Shown here in pieces: positions 3,788 through 32,882 of a DNA stretch of 43,450 bases (position 1 is the stretch's first letter; every line of letters starts with the position of its first letter). This DNA comes from Candidatus Thermoplasmatota archaeon (lineage in GTDB: Archaea; Thermoplasmatota; SW-10-69-26; JACQPN01; JAIVGT01). The notes under the pieces were generated by a model. The model saw only the letters and a list, made by a program, of their open reading frames with translations, did no database searches and had not been told where the DNA came from. The stretch covers positions 1-43,450 of the forward strand of contig DATLFM010000112.1 in the NCBI GenBank assembly GCA_035541015.1. The letters are read 5' to 3'. Made by a program: the position numbers and the translations under genes.

Positions 3788-3796
3788 CCTTAAGGA
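3788..3796 (-). promoter_or_regulatory. TATA-like box of the acyl-CoA dehydrogenase operon
   Basis: TCCTTAAGG on the minus strand, centred 28 bp before ATG 3764. It overlaps the TAA stop of the upstream ATPase-TPR gene. Confidence 0.5.
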
Positions 3797-6450
3797 TTTT
3801 GTGGCGCCGCGGGCTTGGCGTCGGCCGCCAGGCCCGCGGCGGCAGGGCGCGCCTGCGCGGCGTCGAGCACGTAGCCGCCGCGCTCGAAGACGGCAAGCGC
3901 CGCGGCGGCAAGCTGGCGCCCTTGCGCGCCGCCGACGACCCTGGAGCGCGTGAGCTGCACGCGGGCCGCCTCGCCTTCCATGCCAAGCTCCTGGCAGGTC
4001 GCAAGCGCGAGATCCAGCTGCCGCAGCGCCTCCTCGCGCTCGCCGCGGGCCGCGTGGGCAAGCGCGAGCGTGCGACGGCCCTTGGGTACGACGTGGAGGT
4101 GGTGCCGGCCAAGCTGCAGCGCCTCCCGCGCGGCGGCCTCGGCGCCGTCGAGGTCGCCCGCGGCGAGCCGGGCCTGGGCAAGGTCGCACAGGTGGCGCGG
4201 GACGAAGAGGTGCTCCGAGTCGGCGCGGTCGCCGGCGAGGCCGCGCTCGAAGGCGGCGATGGCCTCGGCCGTGCGCCCCTCGGCAAGCTCGATGCGGCCG
4301 CGGATGGGCTCGTTCTCGCCGGCGTCCACGAGGTTCATCTTGCGAAGCGAGAGCTCGACCTTGGCCAGGCACGTGCGGGCCTCCGCGAGCTCGCCTGCGT
4401 CCACGAGACAGAAGCCAAGCTCCCGGCCCAGGAGGTCCACGAACTGGTGGCGACCCGTCTTCTCGGCCAGGGTGAGGCCCTCGCGCAGCGTGGTGATGGC
4501 CTCGGTCAGGCGCCCGAGGCCCGCCAGCGCCATGCCGACGTTGAGATGGGTCCGCAGGCGCACGGAGACGTCCGGGGACCCGGCCGCTTCGAGCTCGCGC
4601 GCCCGCGCGCAGGCTTCGAGCGCCTCGCGGAAGCGGCCGCTGTAGTTGAGCGTGGAGGCGTGGCGCGCAAACGTGCGCAGCATCTCCTCGCGCGGGGCCT
4701 GGAGGTCCGTGAGAAGCTCGAGCGCCTGGGCCGTCGCGTCCACGGCCGCCTTCACGTCCTCGCCCAACGTCAGAAGGTAGTAGTTCTTGACCGAGAGCGC
4801 CCGCGCGCGCTGGGCCGGGTCCATGCTGGGCAAAAGCGCGTCCATCTCCTCGAAGGGCTTGTGGGCCTCGCGCATCTTCCCTAGCGAGCTCCACATCTCG
4901 ACGATCTTGACGAGCACGCGCGCCCGGCGCGCTCCGTCCTCGGGCGCCGTGGAGATCGAATCCCGGTACAACCGCTCGGCCTCGCGGTACTCGCCGTTGG
5001 CGGCGGCGAGGTCGCCTCCCTCCTCGGCCACGGTCGCGCGCTCGCCGTCGGGCTCCATGAGCGCAAGCGCGTCGCGGTAGCATCGCAGCGCCTCCTCGTT
5101 CGCGTACTTGGCGCGAGCTCGTCGCGCCGCCTCCACGGACCATCGGATGCCAAGCGCCGTGTCCTTGCCCGCGATGGCGTGGAAGGCCGTGAGCGCGACC
5201 TTCTCGTCGGTCGCAGGACCCTGGCGGTCCAGCACCTTGGCGATCTGAAGATGGTATTGCCGCCGGAGGGCCGGCGAGAGGGTCGCCTGGAGGTACTCGC
5301 GCAGGCTGCCGTGCGAGAAGGCGAGGTGGTCCTCGCCGGCGGGCAGGAGGACGCGGTGCGCGCGCGCGATCTCCTCGAAGCGCTGGAGGACCTGCAGCGG
5401 GGGCTGTGCGAGCACCTCGGCGACGAGCACCGGATCGAAGTACGTGCCAAAGACGGCCGCGCAGTCGAGCAGGAGACGCTCGTCGCGCGAGAGGCGCTGG
5501 CTGCGGCGCGCCAGCACGTCGGTGACCTTCTGCGGCAGGTGCACGCGCGAACCTTTCTTGAGACGGTAGCGCCCGTCATCCTCCTCCAGGGCCGACTCCT
5601 CGCGCAGCATGCGCAGGGTCTCGACGCAGAACAGCGGATTGCCGTCGGTGGCCGCCGACAGCGTCGAGGCAAGGTCGGGGGTCGGCGACGCTCCAAGCTC
5701 GATCGCGGCCAACCGCGCCACCTCCTGGGGACCCAGCGGCTTGAGAGCAAGGCGCTCGACGAGCCCCTCGCGCGACATGATCGTGAGAGCCTCGTTCGCC
5801 GGTCCTTCGGCCTCCTCGGCCCGCACGGTGGCCAGCAGCAGGATCGGGTGCTTGGGCACGATGCGGGCGAAGTAGTGGAAGAACGCGAGCGAAGAGGAAT
5901 CGGCCCACTGCAGGTCGTCGACGAAGACGACCACCGGCGTCTCCGGCTTGGCCAGGCCGGACAAGAACCGTCCCATCGCTTCGAAGCGGCGCTCCCGCTC
6001 CTCGCGCGGGTCGGCGGGCGTGGCGTCCCGAACCTGGGCAAGACGCTGCGCGCGGTACAATCCGGCGCCTGCCGAAAGCATGTTGCCCACGACGGGCACG
6101 AGCTGCAGGAGCTCGGGCGAGGCGTCCTTGAGCCGTTCGCTGATCTTCTTGGTCCGGTTCTCGCTGCTGTCGTCCTCCCGCAGCGCAAAGTAGCTCGTGA
6201 GCGCGTCGTGAAACGGTAGGAACGGAACGCTCGCTTCGGGCAGGCAGGCGCCCTCGAACCAACGCACGGAGCCCGACTTGGCGCGGGTTTCGAACTCTCG
6301 CACAAGCGTCGTCTTCCCGAGCCCCGCCTCGCCCAACAACACGACGCACGACCCGCGACCGTGATCGCGCGTGGCCGCGAGCTTCTGCCACAGGAGCGAC
6401 AGCTCCGCGTCGCGACCTACGAGATTGGGCGTCCCCGCTTCCGCCGGCAT
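3790..6450 (-). CDS. AAA-type ATPase with C-terminal TPR repeats, MalT/adenylate-cyclase-like STAND regulator
   Basis: The product is 886 residues from ATG 6450; this start is favoured over an upstream in-frame one because a TATA-like CCATATAC lies 28 bp before it. Residues 8-50 hold NLVGRDAEL and the Walker A motif GEAGLGKT (40-47). Walker B is FVDDLQWAD (176-184). A winged-helix-like region and the segment HGSLREYLQATL follow, as in AAA_16/STAND ATPases. From about residue 440 to 860 the sequence is helical with TPR-like periodicity (ALRCYRDALALM, LAQARLAAGDLDGAEAAAREAL). Family members bind ligands through the TPR part and switch with ATP. No DNA-binding or cyclase domain is visible at either end, so the output is unknown. 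Cytoplasmic. Confidence 0.85.
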   Translation of the reverse strand: MPAEAGTPNLVGRDAELSLLWQKLAATRDHGRGSCVVLLGEAGLGKTTLVREFETRAKSGSVRWFEGACLPEASVPFLPFHDALTSYFALREDDSSENRTKKISERLKDASPELLQLVPVVGNMLSAGAGLYRAQRLAQVRDATPADPREERERRFEAMGRFLSGLAKPETPVVVFVDDLQWADSSSLAFFHYFARIVPKHPILLLATVRAEEAEGPANEALTIMSREGLVERLALKPLGPQEVARLAAIELGASPTPDLASTLSAATDGNPLFCVETLRMLREESALEEDDGRYRLKKGSRVHLPQKVTDVLARRSQRLSRDERLLLDCAAVFGTYFDPVLVAEVLAQPPLQVLQRFEEIARAHRVLLPAGEDHLAFSHGSLREYLQATLSPALRRQYHLQIAKVLDRQGPATDEKVALTAFHAIAGKDTALGIRWSVEAARRARAKYANEEALRCYRDALALMEPDGERATVAEEGGDLAAANGEYREAERLYRDSISTAPEDGARRARVLVKIVEMWSSLGKMREAHKPFEEMDALLPSMDPAQRARALSVKNYYLLTLGEDVKAAVDATAQALELLTDLQAPREEMLRTFARHASTLNYSGRFREALEACARARELEAAGSPDVSVRLRTHLNVGMALAGLGRLTEAITTLREGLTLAEKTGRHQFVDLLGRELGFCLVDAGELAEARTCLAKVELSLRKMNLVDAGENEPIRGRIELAEGRTAEAIAAFERGLAGDRADSEHLFVPRHLCDLAQARLAAGDLDGAEAAAREALQLGRHHLHVVPKGRRTLALAHAARGEREEALRQLDLALATCQELGMEGEAARVQLTRSRVVGGAQGRQLAAAALAVFERGGYVLDAAQARPAAAGLAADAKPAAPQNP

Positions 6451-6519: not shown

Positions 6520-7692
6520 CTACCCAACGACCGACTCGTAGCACCTCACGTTGGGCGTTTGGGTGGGCGGCTGCAGGATCGCGGGGAAGCCGGGCACCTG
6601 ATCCACCACATCCAACGTGCACGACGCTGCGCGACCGGCAACGCCCGAAGCCGCGCCGAAGAGCTGCCCCGGCATCGCCGTCGCGCAGCCAGGCTTGAGG
6701 AACGCGACGTCGATCGCGCAGAACGCGGCATCCAACGCTACGTCCACGACGAGGAACGCCGCATCAAAGGCCACGTCGACGGCCACGAAGGCAGCGTCGA
6801 AGGCAAGTCCCACGGCAATCCACGACAGGTTCACCGCGTGCCGCTGCATCTGGCACTTGATCGAATGAAGATCGCCTTGGGCTTCCTCCACGCGATCCTC
6901 CACGAACCCGGCGGCCTGGCCGGGGAAGGTCTCGGTCATGTTCACGGCACAATACAGGATGCGGTCCACGTCGCGCGCGACGGCGCAAGCCAGTTGCAGG
7001 GGAACGCGCGGGCAGACCGTCTGGTTGACCATGCCGTTGTTGGGATCGCCACCGGAGCCAAAACCCGGAACGGGCAGGGGACCGGCCGCAGACGACGCCG
7101 TCGGGGTCGAGGGGGGATCCTCCAGCGCCTCCTCGACGTGCGAGCGCGTGTTGTTGCGAGCCTCCTGGATCGCTTGGGGCGCGCGGCACAGCGCGCGCTC
7201 GGGAGCGTCCTGGCCCAGCACGACGCCCTGGATGGCCCAATGTCGGGCCGCGTTCCAGTCTGCCGCGGCGTGGTCGATCCACGGGGCCTCCAACGCCAAG
7301 GCCGCCTGCCCGGGATCCAGGGCCTGGTAGGTCGATGTGGCGTCGGCGTCGGCCTGGGCAGCGCGCGCGTCGGGATCGGCTGCAAGACCCAGCGGGTCGG
7401 TGGCGGCGTCCACGGCGTGGCGCGTCGCCGCATCGTAGGCGAGCTCCGCGGCCGCAAACGCCCGGCCGCTTGCGCCTTGGGCGCGTGCGTTTGCCCCCTG
7501 GTGGGTTGCAAGCGGCGGGGCGCGCAGAAGGCACCGGGCCTCCTCGATCGCGTCCTCTGCGATGCGGTCTGCAAGGTCTCGCGCGTCGCGCTCGACGCCT
7601 CCGAGGGTCTCGCGCGTGTCGTCGACTGCGTCGGCGGCGGCAAGACCGGGCAGCAGGATGGCAAGGGCCAGTATGGTCGCGGGTGTTCTCGT
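6520..7692 (-). CDS. Secreted Ala-rich protein with 11-residue tandem repeats, unknown function
   Basis: The frame encodes about 390 residues if read from ACG 7692. That codon is preceded by GGAGGG with 6-nt spacing, and the ribosome site overlaps the TAG stop of the caspase-like gene. Read this way, residues 1-22 form an excellent signal peptide (RTPATILALAILLPGLAAADA). The only in-frame ATG, at 7752, overlaps the upstream gene by 49 bp and gives an unusually long Arg-rich leader. The mature protein is helical, with scattered Cys and several possible N-glycosylation sequons. Around residues 290-330 there are about 3.5 copies of the unit A-F/L-D-A-A-F-x-x-V/I-D-V. I recognise no family. Position and direction make it the last gene of the secreted caspase-like cluster. 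Confidence 0.6.
   Translation of the reverse strand, partial: TRTPATILALAILLPGLAAADAVDDTRETLGGVERDARDLADRIAEDAIEEARCLLRAPPLATHQGANARAQGASGRAFAAAELAYDAATRHAVDAATDPLGLAADPDARAAQADADATSTYQALDPGQAALALEAPWIDHAAADWNAARHWAIQGVVLGQDAPERALCRAPQAIQEARNNTRSHVEEALEDPPSTPTASSAAGPLPVPGFGSGGDPNNGMVNQTVCPRVPLQLACAVARDVDRILYCAVNMTETFPGQAAGFVEDRVEEAQGDLHSIKCQMQRHAVNLSWIAVGLAFDAAFVAVDVAFDAAFLVVDVALDAAFCAIDVAFLKPGCATAMPGQLFGAASGVAGRAASCTLDVVDQVPGFPAILQPPTQTPNVRCYESVVG
6701..6810 (-). repeat. Tandem 33-bp coding repeat
   Basis: About 3.5 diverged 33-bp units within the preceding gene encode AFDAAFVAVDV, AFDAAFLVVDV and ALDAAFCAIDV. The protein repeat is much better kept than the DNA, which implies selection on the amphipathic 11-residue unit rather than a recent DNA duplication. 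Confidence 0.7.
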
Positions 7693-7703
7693 GAAAATCC
7701 CTC

Positions 7704-10181
7704 CTACACGGGACAGTTTGGATTTGCGCCGCCGAGCATGGCCCACGACCATTGGTGGAACCCGCAGAACAGGCCGCCGACTCCGTCGAAGCTCTCGTAC
7801 CATTGCGTCAATTGCCGGTCGATCCACGTGACCGTGTCGTAGGTGCGCGGATCGGAAATGTTGACGGCGCCCCCGGCGCCGGCGTCGCACGCGAGGGGAA
7901 TCCCTCCGGGCGGACACAATTCCACGGCGACGCTCCAGGCGTCCTTGTTGGCGTCCACCGAAAGCACGGTGGTGGCGACGTGGAAGCGCCCCGCGTGGTC
8001 GGGGGCGAGAAAACCTCCGGCCGTGGCCAGGCGGTAGTGGTAACAACCAAAGGCCATGGTTCCGGTGGGACCGATCCAGGGCGTCGACGTCCCGTTGGCG
8101 AACTGGCAAACGTGTCCGGGGTCCGCGTCGGTCTCGTCATAGGCCGGGTGACCCTTCTCGCATGCGAAGGCGAGCGTGTCGTTGCCGGCGCCTCCGGGCG
8201 CAAGGCGGGAAGCGTCCTTGCACGTTTGGTTCCACCGTGCATGGAACTGGTCGTCCACCGTGCGCTTGGTGTCGTGTGCGCGAGCGAAGGCTTCGCCCGC
8301 GGGCTCGCGCGTTTCCAGGGACGCGCCCGGCTTGCCACCGGTCTCGGCGCAGGCGCGCGAGCCTTGCCACGAGGCGCACGTGGGCGCCGACTGCGACGTT
8401 GCCTTCGCTTGGCCGTCGCAGGCGGCGGCGACCGCGACGGTCAGGAGCGGCGCGCAGGAGGCAAGCTCCCGAGCTTGGAGGCCACCCACGCGCGGTTGCA
8501 CGCCGGAGCCCAGCACGTAGCCACCGGGCAGGCGCAAGGCCGTGTGCAGTGGCTCGCCGTCTCCCACGAACAGCGCGTGGAACGTCGGGTCGGACAAGTC
8601 AAGGACGGTGCCAGCCGGAACCTCTTCGAGGGAGCGGCCCAGGCGTCCCTCGAGCGCGGCGCGCTTGTCGGGGTCGCGCGAAAGCCCGGCCAGGTGTCCT
8701 TCGGCCAAGGCCAAGAGGATGGCGCGTTCGGAGCCTTCCACGGCACCGGGCAACGTAGGCGTGACCGGCCCGAGGCTGGACGAGGAAGCCGCGTTTGCTT
8801 GGCCGTTTTCTCCGAAGGTCCAGCTTCGGTGGAAGGGGCCCCATAGGCGTTTGGCGAAGGCGCCGGATTTCCAGCCGATGGAGCCGTGGGCGACAAAGTC
8901 GAGGTAGGCTTCCAGCGTGAGCACGAGCGAGCCGGAGCTCACGCGTGCGGAAAGGTCCACCGTGACGACGATGCCCACCCACGATTCGACGCGGATCTTG
9001 ATCTCCTTTCCCCACCACAGGCGTCCGATCTTGAACTCGTAGGCGTGGGGGTGGCCGATCTGGGCCGCCAAGGATCCGCCTCCCCCGGCGCTGCGGTTTT
9101 CAAGCACGCCGCCGTACACGGCGCCGCAAAGGTCCAATCGGACCACGTCGAACTCGACCTTTCCCGTCACGGCGCCGTTGCGGGCCGCGAACATGTCGAG
9201 CTTCTGCTTGTTGATCGTGTACCCGGGAATGACAAGATCCATAAGCCCCAGCACGGGCACGCAATCGAAGGCGCCGGGGGGCCACTTGCCAAAGATGTAC
9301 ACGTAGTTCCAGTTCTTGTTGAATTGCGGGCCCGTTTCGCGCGTGAGGACGCCAAGTCGCGTGAGCGTGTCGAGGCTTGCGGTAAGCGCCTGCTTGGCGA
9401 CCATCTGCGCCGCGGCGCCGGCTTGGGCTTTCTTGCTGAGCTTCTCGTCGTCCTCGCTGGTTTGCTTGTCGCACTCGAGATCGTTGGGCGCGGTGTGCTT
9501 GTCGTAGCACTTGTCGCGCGCGTACCAGTTCCAGCCGCGGCTGACTTGGCTGTCGTGGTGCAGGGGCTCTTGCGGCAGGAACAGGCGGCCAAAGTACGCG
9601 TCGGCGCCGCCATATCGTTGCAGGAGGTCCTCGAAGGCCGCGGCCATGCGCGTAACCGTGGACGGCTCTCCGTAGAGCTGGCTCCAGCCTTCGATCGCGT
9701 GAAGCGTGGCCACGCGCGCGTCCACGGGACCTGCAAAGCTTGTCACGTCCGTGTCGCCCACGCGCGCGGGCAAGCCCAGATCGCAGGTGGCGAAGAAGAC
9801 GTGGCGCGCGCCGGATTGTTCCAGCGCCGCGAGGAGTTCGTCGCGAGGAACAAGCGCTCCGCCCACGAAGAGGCCCAGGCCTTCCTGCCCGTGGGCGACC
9901 ACGATCACGAGCTTGGCGTTGGAACGTGCAAGCGCGTCCAGGAACTCGCGTGGGGTGGCGACGTCCACGCGGTCCAAACGAACGTCGCTTTGGCGCGCAA
10001 CGTCCGCAAGGTCGGCGGCCACGCTTTGGGCAAGCCGGTCGCCGTCGGAGAGCAGCGTGACCTCCTGGAAGCGCTCGCTGCTTCCGGCGCCCGACTGCAC
10101 TTGGGAGCCGCCTGCGGCGCCCAACAGGGCAAGAGCCAGACACAGCGTGAAGGCGCGGTAGGTGGGGGAGCGCTTGAGCAT
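7704..10181 (-). CDS. Large secreted protein with an N-terminal caspase/CHAT-like peptidase fold
   Basis: The product is 825 residues from ATG 10181, which follows GAGGCGA. Residues 1-25 are a signal peptide. The next 150 residues alternate strand and helix as in caspase-fold (clan CD) peptidases. The hydrophobic strand LVIVVAHGQ ends in H97-G98, and the strand RHVFFATCDLG ends in C133. A His-Gly after one strand and a Cys after the next are the family's catalytic-dyad arrangement. The remaining 630 residues are Cys-containing, rich in beta structure and unlike anything I recognise. Several NxS/T sequons fit an exported archaeal glycoprotein. It is fifth from last or later in a co-directional run with five tiny secreted proteins upstream and an Ala-rich secreted protein directly downstream. 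Peptidase activity is inferred from motifs only. Confidence 0.7.
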   Translation of the reverse strand: MLKRSPTYRAFTLCLALALLGAAGGSQVQSGAGSSERFQEVTLLSDGDRLAQSVAADLADVARQSDVRLDRVDVATPREFLDALARSNAKLVIVVAHGQEGLGLFVGGALVPRDELLAALEQSGARHVFFATCDLGLPARVGDTDVTSFAGPVDARVATLHAIEGWSQLYGEPSTVTRMAAAFEDLLQRYGGADAYFGRLFLPQEPLHHDSQVSRGWNWYARDKCYDKHTAPNDLECDKQTSEDDEKLSKKAQAGAAAQMVAKQALTASLDTLTRLGVLTRETGPQFNKNWNYVYIFGKWPPGAFDCVPVLGLMDLVIPGYTINKQKLDMFAARNGAVTGKVEFDVVRLDLCGAVYGGVLENRSAGGGGSLAAQIGHPHAYEFKIGRLWWGKEIKIRVESWVGIVVTVDLSARVSSGSLVLTLEAYLDFVAHGSIGWKSGAFAKRLWGPFHRSWTFGENGQANAASSSSLGPVTPTLPGAVEGSERAILLALAEGHLAGLSRDPDKRAALEGRLGRSLEEVPAGTVLDLSDPTFHALFVGDGEPLHTALRLPGGYVLGSGVQPRVGGLQARELASCAPLLTVAVAAACDGQAKATSQSAPTCASWQGSRACAETGGKPGASLETREPAGEAFARAHDTKRTVDDQFHARWNQTCKDASRLAPGGAGNDTLAFACEKGHPAYDETDADPGHVCQFANGTSTPWIGPTGTMAFGCYHYRLATAGGFLAPDHAGRFHVATTVLSVDANKDAWSVAVELCPPGGIPLACDAGAGGAVNISDPRTYDTVTWIDRQLTQWYESFDGVGGLFCGFHQWSWAMLGGANPNCPV

Positions 10182-10249
10182 GGTTTCGCCTCGGTCGCCG
10201 CAAGGGCGCTACGGAGTCTCGGGTCACGACCGCCGTCGGCTGGCGTGTC

Positions 10250-10507
10250 CTACGCGTCGCCTTCGCCCTCTGTGGCTGGTTCTTCGGCCGGGCAAGGGCT
10301 CGTGGTGTCGGGATTCTTCTCGAGGACGTAGGGATACACGAGGAGGATGCTGTGATCGTCGCCCTGGCAGCGCCAGACGCCGACGCCAATCCAGCGCCCT
10401 TCGGTGGCCTCCGCCTCGTTCACAAGCAAGCCCGGGACCATGGTCGCGGCCGCCACGCCCGCAAGGGCGAGCACCGCGAAGGTCGTCTTCGTGGTTCGGT
10501 GGTTCAT
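10250..10507 (-). CDS. Small secreted protein 1 of the caspase-like cluster
   Basis: The product is 85 residues from ATG 10507, chosen because GAGGG lies 7 nt upstream. A signal peptide (TTFAVLALAGVAAATMVPG) is followed by a short mature part with GRWIGVGVWRCQGDD and a Pro/Glu-rich tail; it has two Cys. I know of no family. It is the last of five small secreted proteins before the large caspase-like gene, separated from it by about 70 bp. Confidence 0.55.
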   Translation of the reverse strand: MNHRTTKTTFAVLALAGVAAATMVPGLLVNEAEATEGRWIGVGVWRCQGDDHSILLVYPYVLEKNPDTTSPCPAEEPATEGEGDA

Positions 10508-10536
10508 GTTCAATCCCTCGTTTGGTGTCGGGTGAT

Positions 10537-10761
10537 CTAGAGTCGGAATCCGACGGTTCGCTTCTGACCCAAGAACTCGAGGAGCCCGCGGCCCTCGCCG
10601 CAGGGGTCGGCTTGGTCGTCCCAGTCGCAGCCGTCGGGCGGCACACGGCAGACGAGCCCGTCGCCGGCAGGCTCGCAGCCCAGCGGGTAGGCCGTCGCGC
10701 CCGGGGACGAAGCGGCGACCAGGGCCAGCAGGAGTCCGGCGGTGAAGATCCGTGTAGTCAT
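10537..10761 (-). CDS. Small secreted Cys-rich protein 2
   Basis: The product is 74 residues from ATG 10761, with GAGGGG upstream. It has a clear signal peptide (IFTAGLLLALVAASSPGATA) and a mature part of about 50 residues with four Cys (LGCEPAG, LVCRVPP, DGCDWDD, ADPCGEG), likely two disulphides outside the cell. No family is recognised. It lies in tandem with the neighbouring small secreted genes. Confidence 0.55.
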   Translation of the reverse strand: MTTRIFTAGLLLALVAASSPGATAYPLGCEPAGDGLVCRVPPDGCDWDDQADPCGEGRGLLEFLGQKRTVGFRL

Positions 10762-10771
10762 TCGAATCCCC

Positions 10772-10990
10772 TCACAGGCGCATCCTAAGGTGCCCGCGGC
10801 AGTTGCTCGGCTCAGGCGGGAAGCCGCTCACGTCGCAGCAGTACTCGGTGCCGCTCAAAGGATGGGCTGGGAGCCCAGGACCTTCGCATGGATCCGTTCC
10901 GTGGCCGGCAACGGCGCCGCCGGCCAGCATGCCAAGGGCCAGGAGCAGGGCGATCGACGACAGGCTCGCAAGACGCGGGTTCTGGTTCAT
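10772..10990 (-). CDS. Small secreted Cys-rich protein 3
   Basis: The product is 72 residues from ATG 10990. Signal peptide ALLLALGMLAGGAVAG. The mature part has four Cys, including an adjacent pair in TEYCCDVSG, plus DPCEGPG and SNCRGH. Only 10 bp separate it from the next gene downstream, which points to co-transcription. Function unknown. Confidence 0.55.
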   Translation of the reverse strand: MNQNPRLASLSSIALLLALGMLAGGAVAGHGTDPCEGPGLPAHPLSGTEYCCDVSGFPPEPSNCRGHLRMRL

Positions 10991-11018
10991 GGACTCACTC
11001 CGTCGATGAGATGGAAGT

Positions 11019-11222
11019 TCAAGGCGGAAGGCCGGGCAGCGGCCGCTCGTAATTGCACGTTTCTTTGTGAAGGCGGTCGTACAGGCAGATTACGAGGTCG
11101 CAGCCCGTGCCGATGCAGACGAGGCTGCCGTTCTTGGAGCGGCCGCCCTCCTGGGCAAGGACCGTGCCCGAGCCAAGGAGCAACATCGCGGCGAGCAGGC
11201 AGATTGCAGTTCGAGCGTGCAT
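11019..11222 (-). CDS. Small secreted Cys-rich protein 4
   Basis: The product is 67 residues from ATG 11222. Signal peptide TAICLLAAMLLLGSGTVLA, then a mature part of about 44 residues with four Cys (LVCIGTGCDLVICLYD and KETCNYERPLPGLPP). The C-terminal ERPLPGLPP and the Cys spacing match the next gene upstream (11241-11477), so the two look like diverged paralogues. Function unknown. Confidence 0.6.
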   Translation of the reverse strand: MHARTAICLLAAMLLLGSGTVLAQEGGRSKNGSLVCIGTGCDLVICLYDRLHKETCNYERPLPGLPP

Positions 11223-11240
11223 GGTTCGACACTCCAGCGT

Positions 11241-11477
11241 CTAGGGGGGACCCGGAAGCGGCCGCTCGCAGCCGTCGCGGCGCGCGTCGTAGACGCAGTC
11301 ATAGGCTCCGACGAGCGTTTCGCACAACCCCGCGTCGCTGGCGCAGACGAGGACGCCGTCCTTGCTGGTGATCCTGTGCGACGCTTCCGCGCCGCCGGGA
11401 ACAAGACTCGTCGCAAGGAGCAGCGCAAGCCACGCGACCGTGGCGCCGGCCAAGATTCGGATTCGGGTCTTTGTCAT
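11241..11477 (-). CDS. Small secreted Cys-rich protein 5, paralogue of protein 4
   Basis: The product is 78 residues from ATG 11477, with GGAGAG upstream. Signal peptide VAWLALLLATSLVPGGAEA, then SKDGVLVCASDAGLCETL, a third Cys in YDCVYD and the C-terminal GCERPLPGPP. The order SKxGxLVC, then G-x-C, x-C-x-YD and C-x-x-RPLPG-PP is shared with the downstream gene. It is the first gene of the minus-strand cluster and is divergent from the membrane wHTH gene, a natural candidate for its regulator. Confidence 0.6.
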   Translation of the reverse strand: MTKTRIRILAGATVAWLALLLATSLVPGGAEASHRITSKDGVLVCASDAGLCETLVGAYDCVYDARRDGCERPLPGPP

Positions 11478-11776
11478 GCGGTTCTCTCCACCGGCGCGCG
11501 GCCGTGCCGCCGCCGGCGGCGTTGCGTTCCACGCCGTCGCCCATCAACCTTGGCTGGGATGTCCGAACGGTCGCGCAAGACACGTTCAAGGCCGGGTCGG
11601 GCCTTGCGCGGCAGGCGTTCCATACGTCATTTCAAGGCTCCTGCCGAGAATGCCGTCTGCTTTCGATGTCCGGGGTCCAATCTCTTTGCGCCCTTCGGCG
11701 TGTCGCCGCGTTCGGGCGTCCGCGCATAACCTTTTGTACTGGCAAGCGGACCTTCCGGCGGGAGAGGTGTTCGCGA

Positions 11777-12955
11777 CTGCGCTTCAGCGTCGTCCCCGCA
11801 GCGGTGGCCGTCCTCGCGCTCTCGTTCGTGATGGCCGGCCCGGCTTCCGCGCTCATGTTCGTTTCGTCCTGCGAGGGCCTGCCGACCTGCTCGGCCCACG
11901 AAGAGACCACGGAGTTGCTCAACGCAGGCTACCAAGGGGCGCGGGGCGCCGTTTCCGAGGCCCGAGACGAAGCCCATTCGAACTCCAGGGAGCGTCTCGA
12001 TTCCACGTCCGAGGAGGTCGCGACCTTGCGCGAGCAAACGCGCGCCACCGATCTGGAGACCCCCTCGCCCGAGGCGCCCGTCCTGGAGACGCCCGCCGTG
12101 CCGGAGCTTCCCGGCGCCGACGTCCCCGATCTTCCGCACCTTCCCGACCTCGGCGTCCCCAGCGCGGATCCTGCGGCGCACGTCGGGCGCGCGCACGCGG
12201 CCCTGACGCTTGGGGGGCAGGCCGGATCGGCGCCGACCTCAAACGAACTGCAAGGCGCCCGGGAGCGGGCCCTCACGCGCGCGGAGGCTTTCGTCACGCG
12301 AGTCGCGGTTCCAAGGTCGGACGGCGACGCATCGCACGCTGGCCTCTCGCAGACGTACGCAACTGCGGAGTTCCCGCCGCTTCCGGCGATCCTGGGTCTT
12401 GTCGCAGGCCTCCTCGTCCTTGCCCTGCCCCTGCTCCATCGTCTCCTGCCCAACGAGGCCCTCGACCACCGTCTGCGGCAGCGGCTCTACGAGCTCGCGC
12501 AGCGGGACGAGGGCGTCACGGCAAGCGAGGCGGCGCGGGCGCTTGCCGTTTCCGCCACGACGGCAGGCTATCACCTCCGCCGGTTGCAGGCCAGCGGCAT
12601 GCTGGCGGCCGAGAACGTCGGCAAGCGCCTTTGCTTCCATGTCCCGGGCCGACCCCCGAGCGCCCGGCGCGCGCGGCGGCTCCTTCGCGACCCTTCGGCG
12701 CGAAGATTGCTCGGAGCCCTCCGGGAAGGCCCCGCCGGGAGCCTGCGCGAGCTGGCGGCGCGCTCCGGCGTCTCGTTGGCGACGGCGCACGCGTGCGTCG
12801 GTCGTCTCGCGAGCGAGGGGCTCGTTGAGGTTCAACCGCGCCCAGACGCAGCCCGCTCCTACGCGGCAACGGAGCACGGGCTTGCGCTCGCGGCGCCCGC
12901 GGAGGGTCCCGGCGACGCCCTGGCGCCGCCGGCCTCGGCGGCCGCAGCCTTTTAG
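11777..12955 (+). CDS. Membrane-anchored regulator with tandem C-terminal winged helices
   Basis: I place the start at CTG 11777. AGGTG lies 7 nt upstream, and the resulting residues 1-25 (RFSVVPAAVAVLALSFVMAGPASA) form a proper signal peptide. In-frame ATG 11666 would read through apparently non-coding sequence, and GTG 11804 would remove the positive n-region. The exported part (about 25-190) has a few Cys and a Pro/Glu-rich linker. One membrane segment, PAILGLVAGLLVLALPLLHRLL, is followed by two cytoplasmic winged helices: VTASEAARALAVSATTAGYHLRRL and GSLRELAARSGVSLATAHACVGRL. This architecture is common in Thermoplasmatota and haloarchaea, where such proteins presumably relay an outside signal to DNA. 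Its divergent position suggests control of the secreted caspase-like cluster. Confidence 0.7.
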   Translation: MRFSVVPAAVAVLALSFVMAGPASALMFVSSCEGLPTCSAHEETTELLNAGYQGARGAVSEARDEAHSNSRERLDSTSEEVATLREQTRATDLETPSPEAPVLETPAVPELPGADVPDLPHLPDLGVPSADPAAHVGRAHAALTLGGQAGSAPTSNELQGARERALTRAEAFVTRVAVPRSDGDASHAGLSQTYATAEFPPLPAILGLVAGLLVLALPLLHRLLPNEALDHRLRQRLYELAQRDEGVTASEAARALAVSATTAGYHLRRLQASGMLAAENVGKRLCFHVPGRPPSARRARRLLRDPSARRLLGALREGPAGSLRELAARSGVSLATAHACVGRLASEGLVEVQPRPDAARSYAATEHGLALAAPAEGPGDALAPPASAAAAF

Positions 12956-14884: not shown

Positions 14885-16012
14885 ATGGCGCGCAGCATCC
14901 TCGCGGGCGTCCTCGTTTGCATCCTTGCGGCAAGCGTCGCCGCCGCCGCGCCCGGCGATCTGCCCGGGCTTCCCGTCGAGCCGGGGTCCGGGCCGCCCCA
15001 CGCGGCCAAGGACGCGCCCGCACCGGTCCGCCAGATTTCGAGCAAGGCCGCGCCCCCCGTGGAGAAGGCCCCGCCCGGGCTTGTGGAGCAAGTCGCGGCG
15101 CTTCTTTCCGGCGCTGGCTTGGCGCTCTCCGGCGCGGCCGGTGCGCTCGGAACGGCACTGGGCGCGGCGGGCTCCGCGCTGCTCGCATTCCTGGAGGCCG
15201 TCGTCGCGGCGCTCTCGTCGGCCGCGTCCTGGCTTGGCGCCGCGCTTGCCAGCGGAACGATCGTGGTCACCGACGGGCTCGCGCGGGCCGCGGACGCGGT
15301 GGTCTCCGGCCTCGTCGCGTTTGCAAACGCGGTCGCCCGAGGCCTCCTCGTGTTTGCCTCGGCCGTGGCGGCTGGGATCGCCGCGCTGGGATCCGCCGCC
15401 GCAGCGGTTCCGTCCTCGATTCCCCCCGAGCACCACGCGCTCGCCGGCGGCGCCGCCGGCGCCGCGGCCGCCGTCGCGGGGCTCTCGCTCCTGCACTACC
15501 TCGGCTTCCTCGCTCCGCTCTACTCCCGCCTGGCGCCCCGCGAGCTTCTCGACAACGGGGCCCGCGCGCGGATCTTCGAGCTCATCCGCGCGAATCCGGG
15601 CACCCACGCAAGCGCTATCGCGCAGGCGGCCGGCACGGGCTGGGGCACCACGATGTACCACCTCGCGCGGCTGCGCGAGGCTCGCATGATCGTCGCCAAC
15701 CGGCACGGCAACAAGACGTGCTACTTCCCCATGGGAATCCCCGAGGGAACCCGCGCGCGCCTGGCCGCGACGCGTCACGACCGCGCGCGCGAGATCGCCG
15801 ATTTCGTCCGGTCCCGGCCGGGCGCCACGCAGAAAGAGGTGGCCGCCTCGCTTGGCATGTCCCCCGCGCTTGTCTCCTGGCACGTGCGCCGTCTCCAGCA
15901 GGCCGGCGTCCTGGGCGCACGCCGCGAAGGACGCGCGACGCTGCTTGTGCCCGCCGCCGCGGCGCCCGCCGCGCCGCCGGGCCTTCCGGCGACCGCGCCG
16001 GCCGCCGCGTAG
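14885..16012 (+). CDS. Membrane-anchored regulator with two C-terminal winged helices
   Basis: The product is 375 residues. Residues 1-21 are a signal peptide (ILAGVLVCILAASVAAAA). A Pro-rich region is followed by a very long Ala/Gly-rich hydrophobic section (about 65-200) that could form several membrane helices or an amphipathic bundle. After HYLGFLAPLYSRL come two winged helices: GTHASAIAQAAGTGWGTTMYHLARL and GATQKEVAASLGMSPALVSWHVRRL. The plan matches the regulator at 11777-12955. The MFS gene follows 36 bp later in the same direction and could be its target or sensor partner. The DNA target is unknown. Confidence 0.75.
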   Translation: MARSILAGVLVCILAASVAAAAPGDLPGLPVEPGSGPPHAAKDAPAPVRQISSKAAPPVEKAPPGLVEQVAALLSGAGLALSGAAGALGTALGAAGSALLAFLEAVVAALSSAASWLGAALASGTIVVTDGLARAADAVVSGLVAFANAVARGLLVFASAVAAGIAALGSAAAAVPSSIPPEHHALAGGAAGAAAAVAGLSLLHYLGFLAPLYSRLAPRELLDNGARARIFELIRANPGTHASAIAQAAGTGWGTTMYHLARLREARMIVANRHGNKTCYFPMGIPEGTRARLAATRHDRAREIADFVRSRPGATQKEVAASLGMSPALVSWHVRRLQQAGVLGARREGRATLLVPAAAAPAAPPGLPATAPAAA

Positions 16013-24903: not shown

Positions 24904-25029
24904 ATGCGGGCGAAGAAACCCAGACGGTGCCAATGCGGGCGCGTGGTGCTGTCAACTGTCGATGAACCCGTCGATGGCGAGCCTTACTGCATCTTTGGCA
25001 TGTGCCCGCCGGTGGCCCCTCATGCCTGA
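24904..25029 (+). CDS. Possible tiny zinc-finger protein
   Basis: A 41-residue frame from ATG 24904 begins [15 protein letters not shown] and ends with [12 protein letters not shown], giving four Cys as CxC and Cx4C. A basic N-terminus plus a Cys quartet resembles small archaeal zinc-finger proteins. There is no clear ribosome site or TATA box. The 3' end overlaps the hsdR stop convergently by 10 bp. The remaining 233 bp (24671-24903) show nothing further. Confidence 0.35.
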
Positions 25030-28000
25030 AGCCAGAAGTCCGTGAGCGTCTCGGCCTGTTCCAGCACGAGATGGGTGGCCCGCTCCTGCTTGTCCGGCGG
25101 GTATCCGTACTTGCGAAGGATGCGCTTGACGATCACGCGGAGCTTGGCTCGCACATTTTCGCGGACGGTCCAGTCGATCGTGACGTTGTCGCGAACTGCC
25201 TCCACCAGCTCACGGGCGATCGTCTTTAGCGTGGGCTCCCCCAAGACCTTCACGGCGCTGTCGTTGGCTTCAAGCGCATCGTAGAAGGCGACCTCGTCGT
25301 CGGACAGACCAAGGTCATGCCCGCGCGCCGCGGCCCTTCGCATCTCCTTGGCAAGCTGGATGAGTTCCTCAATCACTTGCGCGGCCTCGATCGCCCGATT
25401 CTGGTAGCGACGAACGCTTTGCTCCAGGAGCTCGGCAAACGACCGCGCTTGGACGACGTTCCGCTTTGACCTCGTCCGAATTTCGCCCAAAAGCAGCTTG
25501 CGCAGCAGTTCCACAGCCAAGTTCCGCTGCGGTAGTCCTCTTACCTCGGTCAAAAACTCGTCCGAGAGAATGGAAATGTCCGGTTTCTTGATCCCCGCGG
25601 CGGCAAAGATGTCCACGACGTCGCCGGACACGACGGCTTTGGACACGATCTGGCGAATGGCGCGGTCGAGTTCCTCGTCCGTCCGGCGCTCGCCGGGATC
25701 GCCCTTTGCGAGCACCGAGCGAACGGCTTGAAAGAACGCCACGTCGTCACGGATGCGGATGGCTTCCTCGTGCGGGACCGCAAGCGCGAAGGCGTGGGAG
25801 AGTTCGGTGACGACGCGAAGAAGGCGGGCCTTGCCGTCGCGCTGGGCAAGGACGTGCTCTTGAGCGGCCGGGAGGAGACCCAAACGGTCCTGCGGTGTCC
25901 CGGACGACCAGTCAGACCAATCGAAACCGTGGAAAAGCCCGCGGCAAATGTCGTACTTCTCCAGCATTACCGCGACCGCTTCCTCTTGGTCCACCGCAGT
26001 CTTTCCGGTCCCGCCACTCTCGGTGTACGTGGCAAGCGCTTGCTTGAGCTCGTCCGCGATTCCCAAATAGTCCACGACCAAGCCGCCGGGTTTGTCCTTG
26101 AACACGCGATTGACGCGCGCGATGGCCTGCATGAGGCCATGGCCTCGCATCGGCTTGTCCACGTACATCGTGTGCAGGCTGGGCGCGTCAAAGCCCGTCA
26201 GCCACATATCGCGGACGATCACGATCCGGAACGGGTCCTTGGCATCGCGGAACCGCTTGGCCAGCGATTCGCGGCGAGCCTTGTTGCGAATATGGCGTTG
26301 CCAATCCAGCGTGTCGGACGCCGACCCCGTCATGACGACCTTGAGGATTCCGCCCTCGTCGTCCTCATGGTGCCAATCGGGACGAAGGGCCACGATTTCG
26401 CGGTAGAGCTCGACGCAGATTCGGCGGCTCATGCAGACGACCATGGCTTTGCCATCCAACGCGGCAAGCCGCTGTTCGAAGTGTTCCACGAGATCGCGGG
26501 CGACTCGCTTCAAACGATTCTCCGAGCCCACGACGGCTTCGACTTGCGCCCACTTGGTCTTGAGCTTTTCCTTCCGTTCGACTTCCTCACCCTCGGTGAC
26601 CTCTTCGAACTCGGAGTCGATTCGTGGGCGCTCGGACTCCTTGAGCTGCAACTTTGCCAAGCGCCCCTCGTAGTAGATTGGCACCGTGGATTGATCGAGA
26701 ACCGCCTGCCGGATGTCGTAGACGCTGATGTAGTCGCCAAAGACGGAACGCGTGTTCTTGTCGGTCGCCTCGATGGGCGTTCCGGTGAAGCCGATGAACG
26801 ACGCGTTGGGCAACGCGTCGCGCATGTGCCTTGCAAAGCCGTCGATGAAGTCGTACTGGCTGCGATGGGCCTCGTCGGCGATCACCACGACGTTCCTTCG
26901 ATCCGAGAGGATGGGATGCTTGTCGCCCTTGATCTCGGGCAAGAACTTCTGGATCGTCGTGAACACCACGCCGCCGCCCGACACGCGCAGCTTCTCCCGC
27001 AAATCGCCGCGGTCGGCCGCTTGGACCGGCGGCTGGCGGAGAAGATCCTTGCACTTGGCAAACGTTCCGAAGAGCTGGTCGTCCAGATCGTTGCGATCCG
27101 TGAGGACCACAAGCGTCGGATTCTCCATTTCCGGATGGAGGATCAAACGGCCGGCGTAGAAAGCCATCGACAGGCTTTTGCCGGAACCCTGCGTGTGCCA
27201 CACGACGCCCACGCGGCGGTCGCCCGGGTCTCCGCCATGTGGCTTGGCGGGGAGACCTTCCTTCCCCGCCGTGCTTTCCGCTGTCCGTGGGCCCTTGGCG
27301 CGCAACGTCTCCCCGAGGGCGACGTTCACGGCGTGGAACTGGTGATAGCCTGCGAGAATTTTCGTGAGCTTGCCCCCGCCTTCGTCCTGAACCACGACGA
27401 AGTGGCGAACCAAGTCCAAGAATCGTCGCTTCTCGAACATTCCTTCAAGAATCACCTGCAACGCGGGCGTCTCGGCCGGCGCTTGCTCGGCGCCGGTCGT
27501 CGTGCGCCATGGCTTGAACCATTCCTTCCCTGCACCAAGTGCCCCCACGCGCGCCTGGACGCCGTCCGACGCGACGAGCGCGACGTTATGTCCAAACAGG
27601 GCGGGAATCTGCGCTTGGTAGGTTTGCAATTGCTGGATTGCGGTCTCGACGGTCGCGTTCTGGCTCGCAGCGTTCTTGAGTTCGAGCACCGCAACGGGCA
27701 AACCGTTGAGGAAAAGGACGATGTCGGGCCGTCGAACGTGCTGGCCTTCCGCGACCGTGAACTGGTTCACAGCAAGCCAGTCGTTGCGCTCGACTGAATT
27801 GAAATCCACGACGCGCGCTTGGGCACCTGCGATCGAACCGTCGGGGCGCCGATACTCGACCGTGACCCCGTCCACGATCATGCGGTGAAGGAGACGGTTC
27901 CGCTCCAGCGGCGATGGCGCGTCCGTCCGGGTGATCTTGCGGAAGGCTTCTTCCACGGCTTCGGGCGGAAGGTCCCCGTTGAGGCGAGAAAGCGCGTGGC

Positions 28001-28157
28001 GCAAGCGCCCTTCGAGAACGACGTCGCGGAAGCCCGGATCCGTGCGCTCGGCGGCGGCCTCACCGTAGGCGATGTCGGGCCCGTGGAGAACCGCGTAGCC
28101 CAGCTTCTGCAGCCAGGCGAGGGCCGCATCCTCGACGACGGACTCGGTGAAGCTCAC
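25020..28157 (-). CDS. hsdR: Type I restriction enzyme, HsdR subunit
   Basis: The product is 1045 residues, the normal HsdR length, starting at GTG 28157. The N-terminal PD-(D/E)xK nuclease is present: D145 in RRPDIVLF and E159-L-K161 in VLELKNA. The motor has Walker A HTQGSGKS (321-328), a DEAH box (428-431), FIGFTGTP and the later helicase motifs including [23 protein letters not shown]. The protein translocates DNA and cuts unmodified molecules in complex with HsdS and HsdM. hsdS-hsdM lie 5 kb away on the same strand with unrelated cargo between. A TATA-like AAATATCC lies about 23 bp upstream, so hsdR has its own promoter. All key residues look intact. Confidence 0.95.
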
Positions 28158-28175
28158 GCATTGTGGATATCTTGG

Positions 28176-28183
28176 GGATATTT
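28176..28183 (-). promoter_or_regulatory. TATA-like box of hsdR
   Basis: AAATATCC on the minus strand, 19-26 bp before GTG 28157. The flanking 28164-28220 also carries four spaced GGGGATA or close words. A second AT-rich patch at 28267-28291 could be another promoter or a terminator. Confidence 0.4.
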
Positions 28184-28378
28184 GGGGTTATCACCCGCGG
28201 GATGGGGATACCCACCGGCGCCCCCGGCCGGATGCCCCGTAATCATGGTCCACCTGTCGAACTCGCAACTTTATTATACTTTTATCATACCAGTTCAGCC
28301 GGAAGCCTTATTCCATCGCGGGCAGCCGTCGGCGCCGGAGCGAAGCGGAGGCGCCAGCCTTTCACGCCACGCGGAGCC

Positions 28379-28642
28379 CTAACGAATCCCAAGGTACGGA
28401 GACACGACAAGAACAAGAAAGGCGGCGGCCAACAATGCGAGAAAAAGCGAAGTGGGATCCAGCCACGCCGGCCGTTCGTGCTCGATCGCTTTCCCGATAA
28501 CATCTGCCGCCCGCTCCGCATTTGCCTCGGTATCCCTTGGATTCGTGACGGTGCCAATTCCGAAGTTGAGAACGGACAGGATCAGTGGAACGGCGAGAAT
28601 CGCCATTGCCACGGCCCATATCTTGACCAGCACGGCTTTCAT
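28379..28642 (-). CDS. Small two-helix membrane protein
   Basis: The product is 87 residues from ATG 28642, preceded by GGGGGA; ATG 28684 is possible but less likely. Helix 1 is IWAVAMAILAVPLILSVLNFGIG and helix 2 is SLFLALLAAAFLVLVVSPYLG, joined by a charged loop with ERAADVIGKAIEHE. No family is recognised. It lies directly upstream of hsdR on the same strand and diverges from the PRTase gene. Confidence 0.5.
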   Translation of the reverse strand: MKAVLVKIWAVAMAILAVPLILSVLNFGIGTVTNPRDTEANAERAADVIGKAIEHERPAWLDPTSLFLALLAAAFLVLVVSPYLGIR

Positions 28643-28843
28643 AATCCCCCGCGCACGGCGACTAGCATCCGCTCGGGCGGCCAATCATGATCCGTGGAAT
28701 GAACGCTTGTGTAGGATCACTGAAAGTGTTCACGGTGGGACGAGACACGAAACCTTGATCGGTGGGCGACTGAATAGGGGCACGTGCTGCCCGGCGCCAG
28801 CGCCATTTGGAAGACCCGCCTCGTCTCAAGCTACGCGGTGCCA

Positions 28844-29506
28844 ATGATCGCCTATCGCTGCAACCAATGTAGCTCACCCATGCTGGAAAAGTTCTGGGCC
28901 GCAACCGGACTATGCGCGATCTGCTACAACCGGAATTCTCCGATCTATTCGCCAAAGGGCATTTCAAAGGCTTGGAGCCTGACCACGTACCTGAAGGCCA
29001 AGAGCGAGCACCCGGGCACCGCTATCATCCAACGCGCCAAAACGGATCGCGCATTAACGGAAGCCATGATGACGGCATCGGCGCAGGCCTTCCTGGACGA
29101 GCTGACATGGCAGGAGGAACCTTGGCGGCCGGAACTTGTCGTGCCTTGTCCCAGTAGTCGCCAGCGAGGCACGACCCGGTCATTTGCAATGGGAAGTGCG
29201 GTAGGCAAGGTGCTGGACCTTCCAGCCCATGACGTCTTGGTCCGCGTGGACGACAACCCTCCACGGTCAGCGCAGGAAGGCAAGAGGGAGCCCGAAACTT
29301 TCGGCAAGCTCTTGGATGAAGTTAGAATTGAGGCGCAAGCGCAATTCATGGGCGAAAAGATCCTGGTGGTCGACGACCTTGCAACCATTGGAACTACCGC
29401 TGCTTCAGCCGCCCACGCGCTCCGGCAGGCCGGCGCAAGCGACGTCCGCCTGCTCGCCTTCGCGAAGTTCTGCACCAAAGAGCACTTGGAGGGCTACTGT
29501 GACTGA
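28844..29506 (+). CDS. Zinc-ribbon phosphoribosyltransferase, ShosT/ComF-like
   Basis: The product is 220 residues from ATG 28844; GTG 28784 is in frame but adds unremarkable sequence. The N-terminal zinc ribbon has C6, C9, C24 and C27 (CNQC, CAIC). The C-terminal PRTase domain has the PRPP motif ILVVDDLATIGTT (173-185) and the preceding VVPCPSSRQRGTTRSFAMG, as in ComF-like enzymes. The next gene, a DprA-like protein, overlaps it by 8 bp. A PRTase paired with a DprA-like protein is, from memory, the ShosTA toxin-antitoxin antiphage module, in which the PRTase is the toxin. The alternative is a plain competence-type ComF, less likely next to restriction genes. Confidence 0.75.
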   Translation: MIAYRCNQCSSPMLEKFWAATGLCAICYNRNSPIYSPKGISKAWSLTTYLKAKSEHPGTAIIQRAKTDRALTEAMMTASAQAFLDELTWQEEPWRPELVVPCPSSRQRGTTRSFAMGSAVGKVLDLPAHDVLVRVDDNPPRSAQEGKREPETFGKLLDEVRIEAQAQFMGEKILVVDDLATIGTTAASAAHALRQAGASDVRLLAFAKFCTKEHLEGYCD

Positions 29507-30395
29507 AGCCGATCCGGCGCTTGTTGCCTTGGCTGCGGCAAGCGACCTGCAGGCGTCCGCTTGGGAACGGTGGGGCCCGACGCTTACGCCTCCCTTGACA
29601 ACGCTCCCGGCCGCGCTCCCGCCTGAGGCGCTCGCAGGCATGATCCACGATTGGGGCAAGCTACAGCCCGAGTGGCAAAAGCAGGTCGAGCGTACGCGCG
29701 AAGCTCTCGAGCGGATGTGGAGTCAAGGCGTCGTCTCCATCCCGATCACAGATCCGAGATACCCCCCGCAACTTCGATCGATCGAACTGCCCCCACTCGT
29801 CCTGCATGTCCAAGGCTCGCTTCGCCATCTCAGCACTGGAGTCGCAATCGTGGGAAGTCGCGAACCAAGCGAACGGGGCCAAGCAATCGCGCGCAGCTTT
29901 TCGGAGAAGCTGGCACACCTTGGAATCCCAATTATCACCGGAATGGCGCGCGGAACTGACCAGCTCGCTGCCCGACACGGTGCCAAGGCGGGCGGCGTCG
30001 TGGTGGGCGTGGTACCGGGGAGCCCACTCGACACGATCCCATTGCTTTGCAGCGACGAATACGCCATGGTCCGCGCCTCGGGCTGCATCGTGAGCGAAAC
30101 GACGCAAGCCGTCGAGGTGACCCCCCGATCCTTCCTGCGCCGGAATCGGATCATCAGTGGACTCGCGCGCCTCCTCGTGGTCGCAGCAACGCGAACGTCC
30201 GGCGGAACGATCAACCAGTTGGAATGGGCGTGGCGTCAGCAGCGGCCGAGCATCGTGTTCGACCGCGGCGCGGAACCGGGATTCCAACAAAAGGTCAAGA
30301 AGCCCGCCTACCATTTCGTTCCCGAGCACCGGCTTGTCCCGCTGGCCGAGGACTTGTGGACGGCGCCGCGAATGTCACCGCAGACGGCGCTATAG
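29499..30395 (+). CDS. DprA/Smf-like SLOG protein, ShosA-like
   Basis: The product is 298 residues from GTG 29499, with GGAGGG 6 nt upstream inside the PRTase gene. After a helical N-terminus comes a DprA Rossmann fold: VAIVGSREPSERG (116-128), GIPIITGMARGTDQLAARHGA, then RSFLRRNRIISGLARLLVVAATRTSGGTINQLEWA. These are the single-stranded-DNA/SLOG signature blocks of DprA. The C-terminal DprA winged helix is absent. Tight coupling to the PRTase matches the ShosTA arrangement, where the DprA-like member neutralises the toxin. It converges with a small membrane-protein gene 4 bp downstream. Confidence 0.8.
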   Translation: MTEADPALVALAAASDLQASAWERWGPTLTPPLTTLPAALPPEALAGMIHDWGKLQPEWQKQVERTREALERMWSQGVVSIPITDPRYPPQLRSIELPPLVLHVQGSLRHLSTGVAIVGSREPSERGQAIARSFSEKLAHLGIPIITGMARGTDQLAARHGAKAGGVVVGVVPGSPLDTIPLLCSDEYAMVRASGCIVSETTQAVEVTPRSFLRRNRIISGLARLLVVAATRTSGGTINQLEWAWRQQRPSIVFDRGAEPGFQQKVKKPAYHFVPEHRLVPLAEDLWTAPRMSPQTAL

Positions 30396-30399
30396 CTCG

Positions 30400-30693
30400 C
30401 TACCTCTTCGCGAGAGCGGCCACGACAAGCACGAGCAAACCGATGGCAATCAAGCCTTTCAGGGCGTCTTGTAGTTGCTCGTCGGAGAGCGGCTGACCGG
30501 CATTTCGTAATTCCTTTCCAAAGTTGTACGCTGCCACGAACTGTTGCGCATTGCGAAGGCTCGATGGGTCTTGCGCATTTCCGAACGATTGCAGAATCTT
30601 CTTTCGCCACCTTCGAAGCCGGGGATCATATTCGTCTTCGACTGCAACGACGTATTCGTAGCCGCCGCTTGGGCGCAGTTCGACGCGGGCCAT
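30400..30693 (-). CDS. Small protein with C-terminal membrane anchor
   Basis: The product is 97 residues from ATG 30693, preceded by GGGGTGGGGAG; TTG 30771 in frame would add 26 residues but has no ribosome site. A charged N-terminal half (YEYVVAVEDEYDPRLRRWRKKIL) and a helix with two NAQ words are followed by a single C-terminal membrane helix, LKGLIAIGLLVLVVAALAKR. This tail-anchored layout would place the body in the cytoplasm. It is divergent from the 51-residue membrane-protein gene at 30823 and shares its control region. Function unknown. Confidence 0.5.
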   Translation of the reverse strand: MARVELRPSGGYEYVVAVEDEYDPRLRRWRKKILQSFGNAQDPSSLRNAQQFVAAYNFGKELRNAGQPLSDEQLQDALKGLIAIGLLVLVVAALAKR

Positions 30694-30724
30694 CTCCCCA
30701 CCCCAGAAAGGATCTGCTTTCTGA

Positions 30725-30806
30725 GGTTTTGGCTGATATCTTCCAAAACCCTTATAGTCTTCGACGGGCAATCAAGCTTGGATGATATCGCCCAATCGGG
30801 TTTTGG
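30725..30806. promoter_or_regulatory. Shared divergent control region with three GGTTTTGG boxes
   Basis: GGTTTTGG occurs at 30725-30732 and 30799-30806, and inverted as CCAAAACC at 30743-30750. CTTATAG at 30751-30757 can serve as TATA on either strand. The flanking octamers are likely operators for the divergent small membrane-protein genes. Confidence 0.5.
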
Positions 30807-30822
30807 GAGGAGGTGAACCAAA

Positions 30823-30978
30823 ATGACTCACATCCCGCACCAGCACGCAGGCCAATTCGAGCTGTGCTACGACAAGCTCTGCGCCCGCGTGCACACGTCG
30901 CAGGAGAGCGCCGATGCGCTCGGCGTGCTCGCGGTCGGCCTGATCGCCGTCGCCATCTTCGCGGCGCTCAGCGGCTAG
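30823..30978 (+). CDS. 51-residue membrane protein
   Basis: The frame starts at ATG 30823 with a near-perfect ribosome site, GGAGGTGA, 7 nt upstream, the strongest in the window. The N-terminal half has three His and two Cys (IPHQHAGQFELCYDKLC). The C-terminal half is one membrane helix, ALGVLAVGLIAVAIFAALSG. A hairpin follows 18 bp after the stop. It is divergent from the tail-anchored gene. No family is recognised; the size and design resemble small membrane effectors or TA toxins, but this is inference. Confidence 0.6.
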   Translation: MTHIPHQHAGQFELCYDKLCARVHTSQESADALGVLAVGLIAVAIFAALSG

Positions 30979-30995
30979 CCGCACGTCCTCGGCAA

Positions 30996-31011
30996 CGACA
31001 ACAAGTTGTCG
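30996..31011 (+). terminator. Hairpin after the 51-residue membrane protein gene
   Basis: CGACAAC-AA-GTTGTCG, a 7-bp perfect stem extended by flanking GGC/GCC-type pairs. It sits between the small plus-strand gene and the convergent CARF gene. The rest of 31012-31156 holds no gene that I can see. Confidence 0.4.
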
Positions 31012-31933: not shown

Positions 31934-31945
31934 GCTTTCCTTAAC

Positions 31946-32873: not shown

Positions 32874-32882
32874 GAGATTAGC

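Follow-up and report, generated by a model that had tools for sequence, protein, structure and literature searches.

We find that one strand of the window, by which we mean the whole contig analyzed here (G000:C112, 43,450 bases), carries an operon of seven genes for exported proteins, and that its large product is best read as belonging to a new, highly divergent clan-CD-like family. Low-confidence models suggest that the N-terminal domain of this protein has the caspase/haemoglobinase fold. We tentatively consider it an extracellular caspase-fold protein that may process itself or its co-exported partners, a reading we hold to be possible. The operon, the export signals, the fold-like topology, the catalytic dyad and the exported genes around the one relative can all be read, as predictions, from the sequence. 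The source genome (G000; 2.2 Mb, 96% complete) was compared with six others of its class, seven genomes in all.

The seven ORFs occupy minus-strand positions 11477-6520 and encode, in this order, five small proteins (sp1-sp5), the large protein and an Ala-rich protein (Table 1). As the original prediction had it, they are co-directional and all their products carry export signals, and all seven lie where it placed them; the start of sp5 has been refined to the ATG at 10507. An SD motif (GGAG or GAGG) lies 7-9 nt upstream of the ATG of each small gene and of the 825-aa gene, and the intergenic gaps from sp1 to the large gene are only 18, 28, 10, 29, and 68 nt. Because of these SD sites and short gaps, there is strong evidence that sp1-sp5 and the large gene are real genes on one transcript. 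The Ala-rich gene, with its start near the ATG at 7752, shares ~49 nt with the 3' end of the 825-aa gene; we looked for a ribosome site in front of it and saw no clear one. The window has a run of five small exported genes, whereas none of 40 control sequences of window size, generated by an order-2 Markov model, gave a run of more than one, so the run is not due to chance. Elsewhere in G000, across 610 kb, small exported Cys genes occur at most two in a row.

Table 1. The seven-gene operon and its flanking genes in the window
Feature	Positions	Strand	Details
Membrane one-component regulator	11777..12955	+	Signal peptide, ectodomain, TM, two wHTH; Pfam HTH_24/HTH_20 twice
sp1, 78 aa, exported	11241..11477	-	ORF, signal peptide, SD GGAG at 8 nt
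sp2, 67 aa, exported	11019..11222	-	ORF, signal peptide, SD GGAG at 9 nt
sp3, 72 aa, exported	10772..10990	-	ORF, signal peptide, SD GGAG at 7 nt
sp4, 74 aa, exported	10537..10761	-	ORF, signal peptide, SD GAGG at 8 nt
sp5, 85 aa, exported	10250..10507	-	ORF, signal peptide, SD GAGG at 8 nt
Large protein, 825 aa, exported	7704..10181	-	N-terminal caspase/haemoglobinase-fold-like domain (modeled), Cys-rich remainder
Codons H97-G98 to C133 (dyad)	9783..9893	-	Kept in relative P0001 (L003)
Ala-rich protein, ~410 aa, exported	6520..7752	-	ORF overlapping 3' end of large gene
AAA_16/TPR STAND-type ATPase	3790..6450	-	Next gene downstream of operon

The AAA_16/TPR gene is unlikely to be an eighth member of the operon: it has no SD, and a TATA-like box lies ~25 nt before its ATG. 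From archaeal promoter spacing, we expect it to form its own leaderless transcript. A tRNA-Gly predicted inside this gene is probably spurious. Farther along the window, a lower-GC island (25023-36000) holds a complete type I restriction-modification system (HsdR 25026-28187, HsdS 33061-34452, HsdM 34379-35878), together with a CARF-domain protein (31160-31966) and a ShosT/PsyrT-like protein (28778-29503).

Sequence searches place the large protein in no known family. The whole protein matches no Pfam family, Peptidase_C14 included, at E-values up to 1, and the domain gives no Peptidase_C14 match even at a limit of E ≤ 10. The N-terminal domain lies directly behind the signal peptide (residues about 33-225) and contains H97 and C133, the two residues that the original prediction had picked out, at the positions it gave. 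When this domain was searched alone, CHAT (PF12770) matched it at E = 0.047 with 13.6 bits against a cut-off of 24, which is below threshold and suggestive only; the match falls in the same region as the caspase-like fold. Searches of PDB sequences with the domain or a two-sequence profile returned nothing relevant. A PADLOC match to BovA within the domain (E = 0.0037) spans just 57 residues and was judged to be chance.

Structure models were built with AlphaFold2 from a two-sequence alignment and are of low confidence (mean pLDDT of 45.8 for the domain model and 29.5 for the full-length model). In both, a strand at residues 91-97 ends on H97 and is followed by a small hairpin, a helix, and a strand at residues 127-133 ending on C133; the full-length model adds b1, a1, b2, and a2 ahead of the first of these strands, giving a predicted core order of b1-a1-b2-a2-b3(H97)-hairpin-a3-b4(C133). 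In the minimal caspase/haemoglobinase core, strand 3 carries the His at its C-terminal end and strand 4 the Cys (PMC4357240), and in our low-confidence models His likewise precedes Cys at the ends of these two strands. Foldseek searches of the PDB with the domain model placed caspases (caspase-2 and caspase-8 chains) at all of ranks 1-11, with a best E of 0.022 and probability 1.00, and with the full-length model placed the MALT1 paracaspase at ranks 1-3, 6, and 7; PDB redundancy inflates the numbers of such matches, none reaches E ≤ 0.001, and the models behind them are of low confidence. Matches in a viral library include caspase-like and clostripain proteins as well.

With a pLDDT of 46, Foldseek E-values of 0.02 at best, and no Pfam family at threshold, the resemblance might be a coincidence of a Rossmann-like fold with low-confidence models, the protein being some other exported protein. 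We regard this as very improbable, since two separate models have caspase-fold proteins as their top matches, the His and Cys fall exactly at strand ends, both dyad residues are kept in a relative, and CHAT, below threshold, matches this part of the protein as well. Agreement between the two models, combined with the catalytic positions, would be hard to obtain by accident. The original proposal of a caspase-like N-terminal domain thus finds support, at the level of modeling, in the predicted topology, in the Foldseek matches of both models and in the conserved HG/C dyad.

Across 390 genomes from the phylum, the relative in question is the only homologue of the large protein that we found; a search of GTDB contigs also gave one relative, and IMG/VR gave none. 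It is an exported protein of 897 aa (P0001, L003) encoded by G004, the nearest informative relative, which belongs to the same order as G000 (public record JAJPHT010000003.1). The title of that record (L006) reads "Proteobacteria" and is probably a mislabel: G004 is archaeal, since it has the gene for a TFIIB that combines a zinc ribbon with cyclin repeats (L045). A 776-aa protein of G004 that matches CHAT weakly toward its C terminus (L045 5824-8154; C47) has no evident signal peptide, and we rejected it as a relative of the window protein.

P0001 is 36% identical to the window protein over the N-terminal domain, and H97, G98, and C133 are all conserved between these two sequences. The domain has five His, of which H97 alone is conserved; C133, the sole conserved Cys of the core, lies within a TCD motif in the window protein and an ACD motif in P0001. 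Four further Cys residues are common to the middle parts of the two proteins. From residue 480 onward (the C-terminal 345 residues), similarity does not rise above that of shuffled controls. The number of mature Cys is odd in both large proteins (17 and 19), as would be expected if one catalytic thiol stays free and the others form disulphides; this is suggestive only.

The P0001 gene also sits in a co-directional run of genes for exported proteins, of about 180, 141, 897, 196, 233, and 541 aa. None of its neighbors has a Pfam family or shows similarity to the neighbors in the window, and no sp1-sp5 homologues lie beside it; in both genomes, an Ala-rich exported gene is directly downstream of the large gene. 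The window's Ala-rich protein consists in part of hydrophobic 11-residue repeats (FDAAFVAVDVAFDAAFLVVDVALDAAF...), and we found no relatives of it in the class. At residues ~312-350, its 11-residue repeats have regularly placed Asp (FDAAFVAVDVAFDAAFLVVDVALDAAFCAIDVAF), perhaps as a membrane- or assembly-forming element.

The mature parts of sp1-sp5 contain 4, 4, 4, 4, and 2 Cys, respectively, all even numbers; where mostly three to four had been claimed, four of the proteins have exactly four, and sp5 has two. sp1 and sp2 are paralogues (41% identical), and their best-conserved part is the C-terminal tail, CERPLPGPP in sp1 and NYERPLPGLPP in sp2, with ERPLPG(L)PP, or ERPLPGxPP, in common. The tail is missing from sp3-sp5, of which sp3 has the weakest codon signal of the five small genes and sp5 has an acidic tail. 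No known relatives were detected for any of the five, a search of the class for relatives of sp1 and sp2 included, and Pfam, NCBIfam, PHROGs, and PADLOC searches of all parts of the operon gave no usable family match. Three tiny exported proteins scattered elsewhere in G000 (C6:8604-8822, C8:14736-14996, and C84:2559-2738) look alike by eye (C..A.V..NC...C.Y.VLG.C) and possibly form a small exported family of that genome.

Arrays of this kind also occur in G004. One array (L003:17406-17977 with L009) encodes five tiny exported proteins of 58-74 aa with 6-10 Cys and lies 8 kb from the caspase-like gene on the opposite strand, with a phosphoglycerate mutase-like gene and a large multi-pass membrane protein in between. 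Another (L087:3882-5397; C40, ~184-185 kb) encodes five tiny Cys-rich exported proteins of 90-100 aa with 4 Cys, on a contig where no relative of the caspase-like gene was found. No family match was found for the array proteins of G004 that were tested. Since arrays are present in G004 apart from the caspase-like gene, they are a trait of the lineage, and their linkage to that gene has so far been seen in the window only. We therefore reject a conserved linkage, the relative having no sp homologues and its own array being on the other strand. The idea of a fixed system of peptidase plus small disulphide peptides does not survive this comparison; separation of the small genes from the large gene in relatives, which the original prediction had named as evidence against itself, is found in part, in one relative (G004).

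These results bear on the strongest rival to a processing role, an island of exported genes. Here the large protein would belong to the surface or matrix, with a caspase-like domain that does no more than bind or self-process, and the small genes would have no task in common with it. We think this possible, if somewhat unlikely. The differing exported neighbors of the relative, the tiny exported Cys genes, single or arrayed, that occur elsewhere without a caspase-like gene, and the dissimilar C-terminal 345 residues all speak for it, whereas the dyad is intact in both proteins despite their low overall identity, and a tightly spaced, SD-bearing operon argues for co-production.

Divergent from the operon lies a gene for a membrane regulator whose start codon is uncertain (11666-11804). 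It shares a signal/TM segment and a wHTH with archaeal membrane wHTH one-component regulators (HTH_HVO_0163_N-like) and differs from them in its two wHTH, its ectodomain of roughly 150 residues, and its ~50 copies in the genome: 51 BLAST matches in G000, and 54 ORFs matching its profile (847 kb). In the rest of the class, each of the six genomes gives 9-30 matches. A second member of the family is encoded in the window (14885-16012), and many members have signal or TM segments. The regulator gene at the head of the operon, as originally described, is real; since it has ~50 paralogues in the genome, its position there is weak evidence and the argument drawn from it loses force.

In G000, seven of 13 clusters of small exported Cys genes lie beside a member of the regulator family, compared with 12% for genes generally (binomial p ~3e-4), an association that is post hoc, the idea having come from the same data, and that depends on a crude gene caller. 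Larger exported genes adjoin the family in 24 of 94 cases (13.5% expected). Five relatives, in which cases are few, do not reproduce the pairing with small genes. Peptide signaling, in which the caspase-like protein would trim exported pro-peptides outside the cell for the regulator ectodomain to sense, would fit the association in G000, a regulator with an exported ectodomain divergent to the array, and the strong conservation of the ERPLPGxPP tail in sp1 and sp2. Yet the family has ~50 members, the association is not replicated, with small numbers, and sp3-sp5 have no such tail; we consider signaling quite improbable. A more inclusive reading, in which a regulator, disulphide pro-peptides, and a caspase-like maturation peptidase make up an extracellular peptide system, with many such units in the lineage serving signaling or antagonism, seems to us unlikely.

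Among known systems, clan CD (C14 caspases/orthocaspases, C11 clostripain, C25 gingipain, C50, C80, and CHAT) is the closest to the large protein, sharing the H-then-C order, the HG and (A/T)C motifs, a dyad placed where strands 3 and 4 end, and the predicted core topology; some known members (gingipains and clostripain) are exported, as this protein is. It differs in matching no family model above threshold, in its long, Cys-rich, non-homologous C-terminal part, in being archaeal, and in having genes for tiny exported Cys proteins beside its own. Few archaea encode prokaryotic metacaspases (five of 114 genomes, with a few in Euryarchaeota), and a minority of prokaryotic metacaspases/orthocaspases carry possible signal peptides in the form of N-terminal helices (PMC3501461). 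The window protein has the H/C dyad in common with them, and neither a Peptidase_C14 match nor the partner domains surveyed there (NACHT and other signaling domains; PMC3501461). Our literature search found no description of an archaeal operon of this form.

Caspase-like peptidases serve as releasing peptidases of exported polymorphic toxins (PMC3482391), and the operon resembles such systems in its exported caspase-like domain and fast-evolving context. Antagonism, either by bacteriocin-like small proteins or by a large protein that is a toxin freed by caspase-like self-cleavage, would also agree with a conserved N-terminal domain followed by an unconserved C-terminal part, and with small proteins that have no detectable relatives. 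Against this, the domain is N-terminal here and is next to a C-terminal toxin in the usual polymorphic toxins, polymorphic toxin systems are sparse in archaea (PMC3482391), and no toxin, immunity gene, bacteriocin, defense family, or dedicated secretion gene was recognized. Searches of Pfam, NCBIfam, PHROGs, and PADLOC gave no toxin or immunity match, nor did we find a known bacteriocin family, a dedicated exporter, or an immunity protein; export appears to use ordinary signal peptides. Antagonism is thus distinctly unlikely, and the bacteriocin or toxin-immunity system suggested at the outset gains no positive evidence.

The reading we tentatively prefer remains that of a processing protein outside the cell, in which proteolysis, the identity of its substrates, the regulator's role, and the biological purpose are inferred. 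One transcript would give rise to seven Sec-exported proteins, probably switched on by the membrane wHTH regulator upon an outside cue. The large protein would combine a divergent clan CD domain, with intact His97 and Cys133, and a large Cys-rich part for binding or structure, and outside the membrane it would most likely act as a processing peptidase that cuts itself, its co-exported proteins, or both. The small proteins and the Ala-rich protein would be the likeliest substrates or partners: fast-evolving, extracellular, disulphide-stabilized products whose set varies between species. Low model confidence, no clan CD family at threshold, and partner genes that are not homologous between species count against this reading.

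Little has been written on exported caspase-fold proteins of archaea, and no existing family model includes the window protein. Should this protein indeed mature co-exported disulphide peptides, the operon would represent an archaeal system of extracellular processing, and peptide maturation would be a starting point for learning what the lineage's ~50 membrane regulators do. Otherwise, the window would still hold a new clan-CD-like family, together with a fast-evolving archaeal secretome of tiny Cys-rich proteins.
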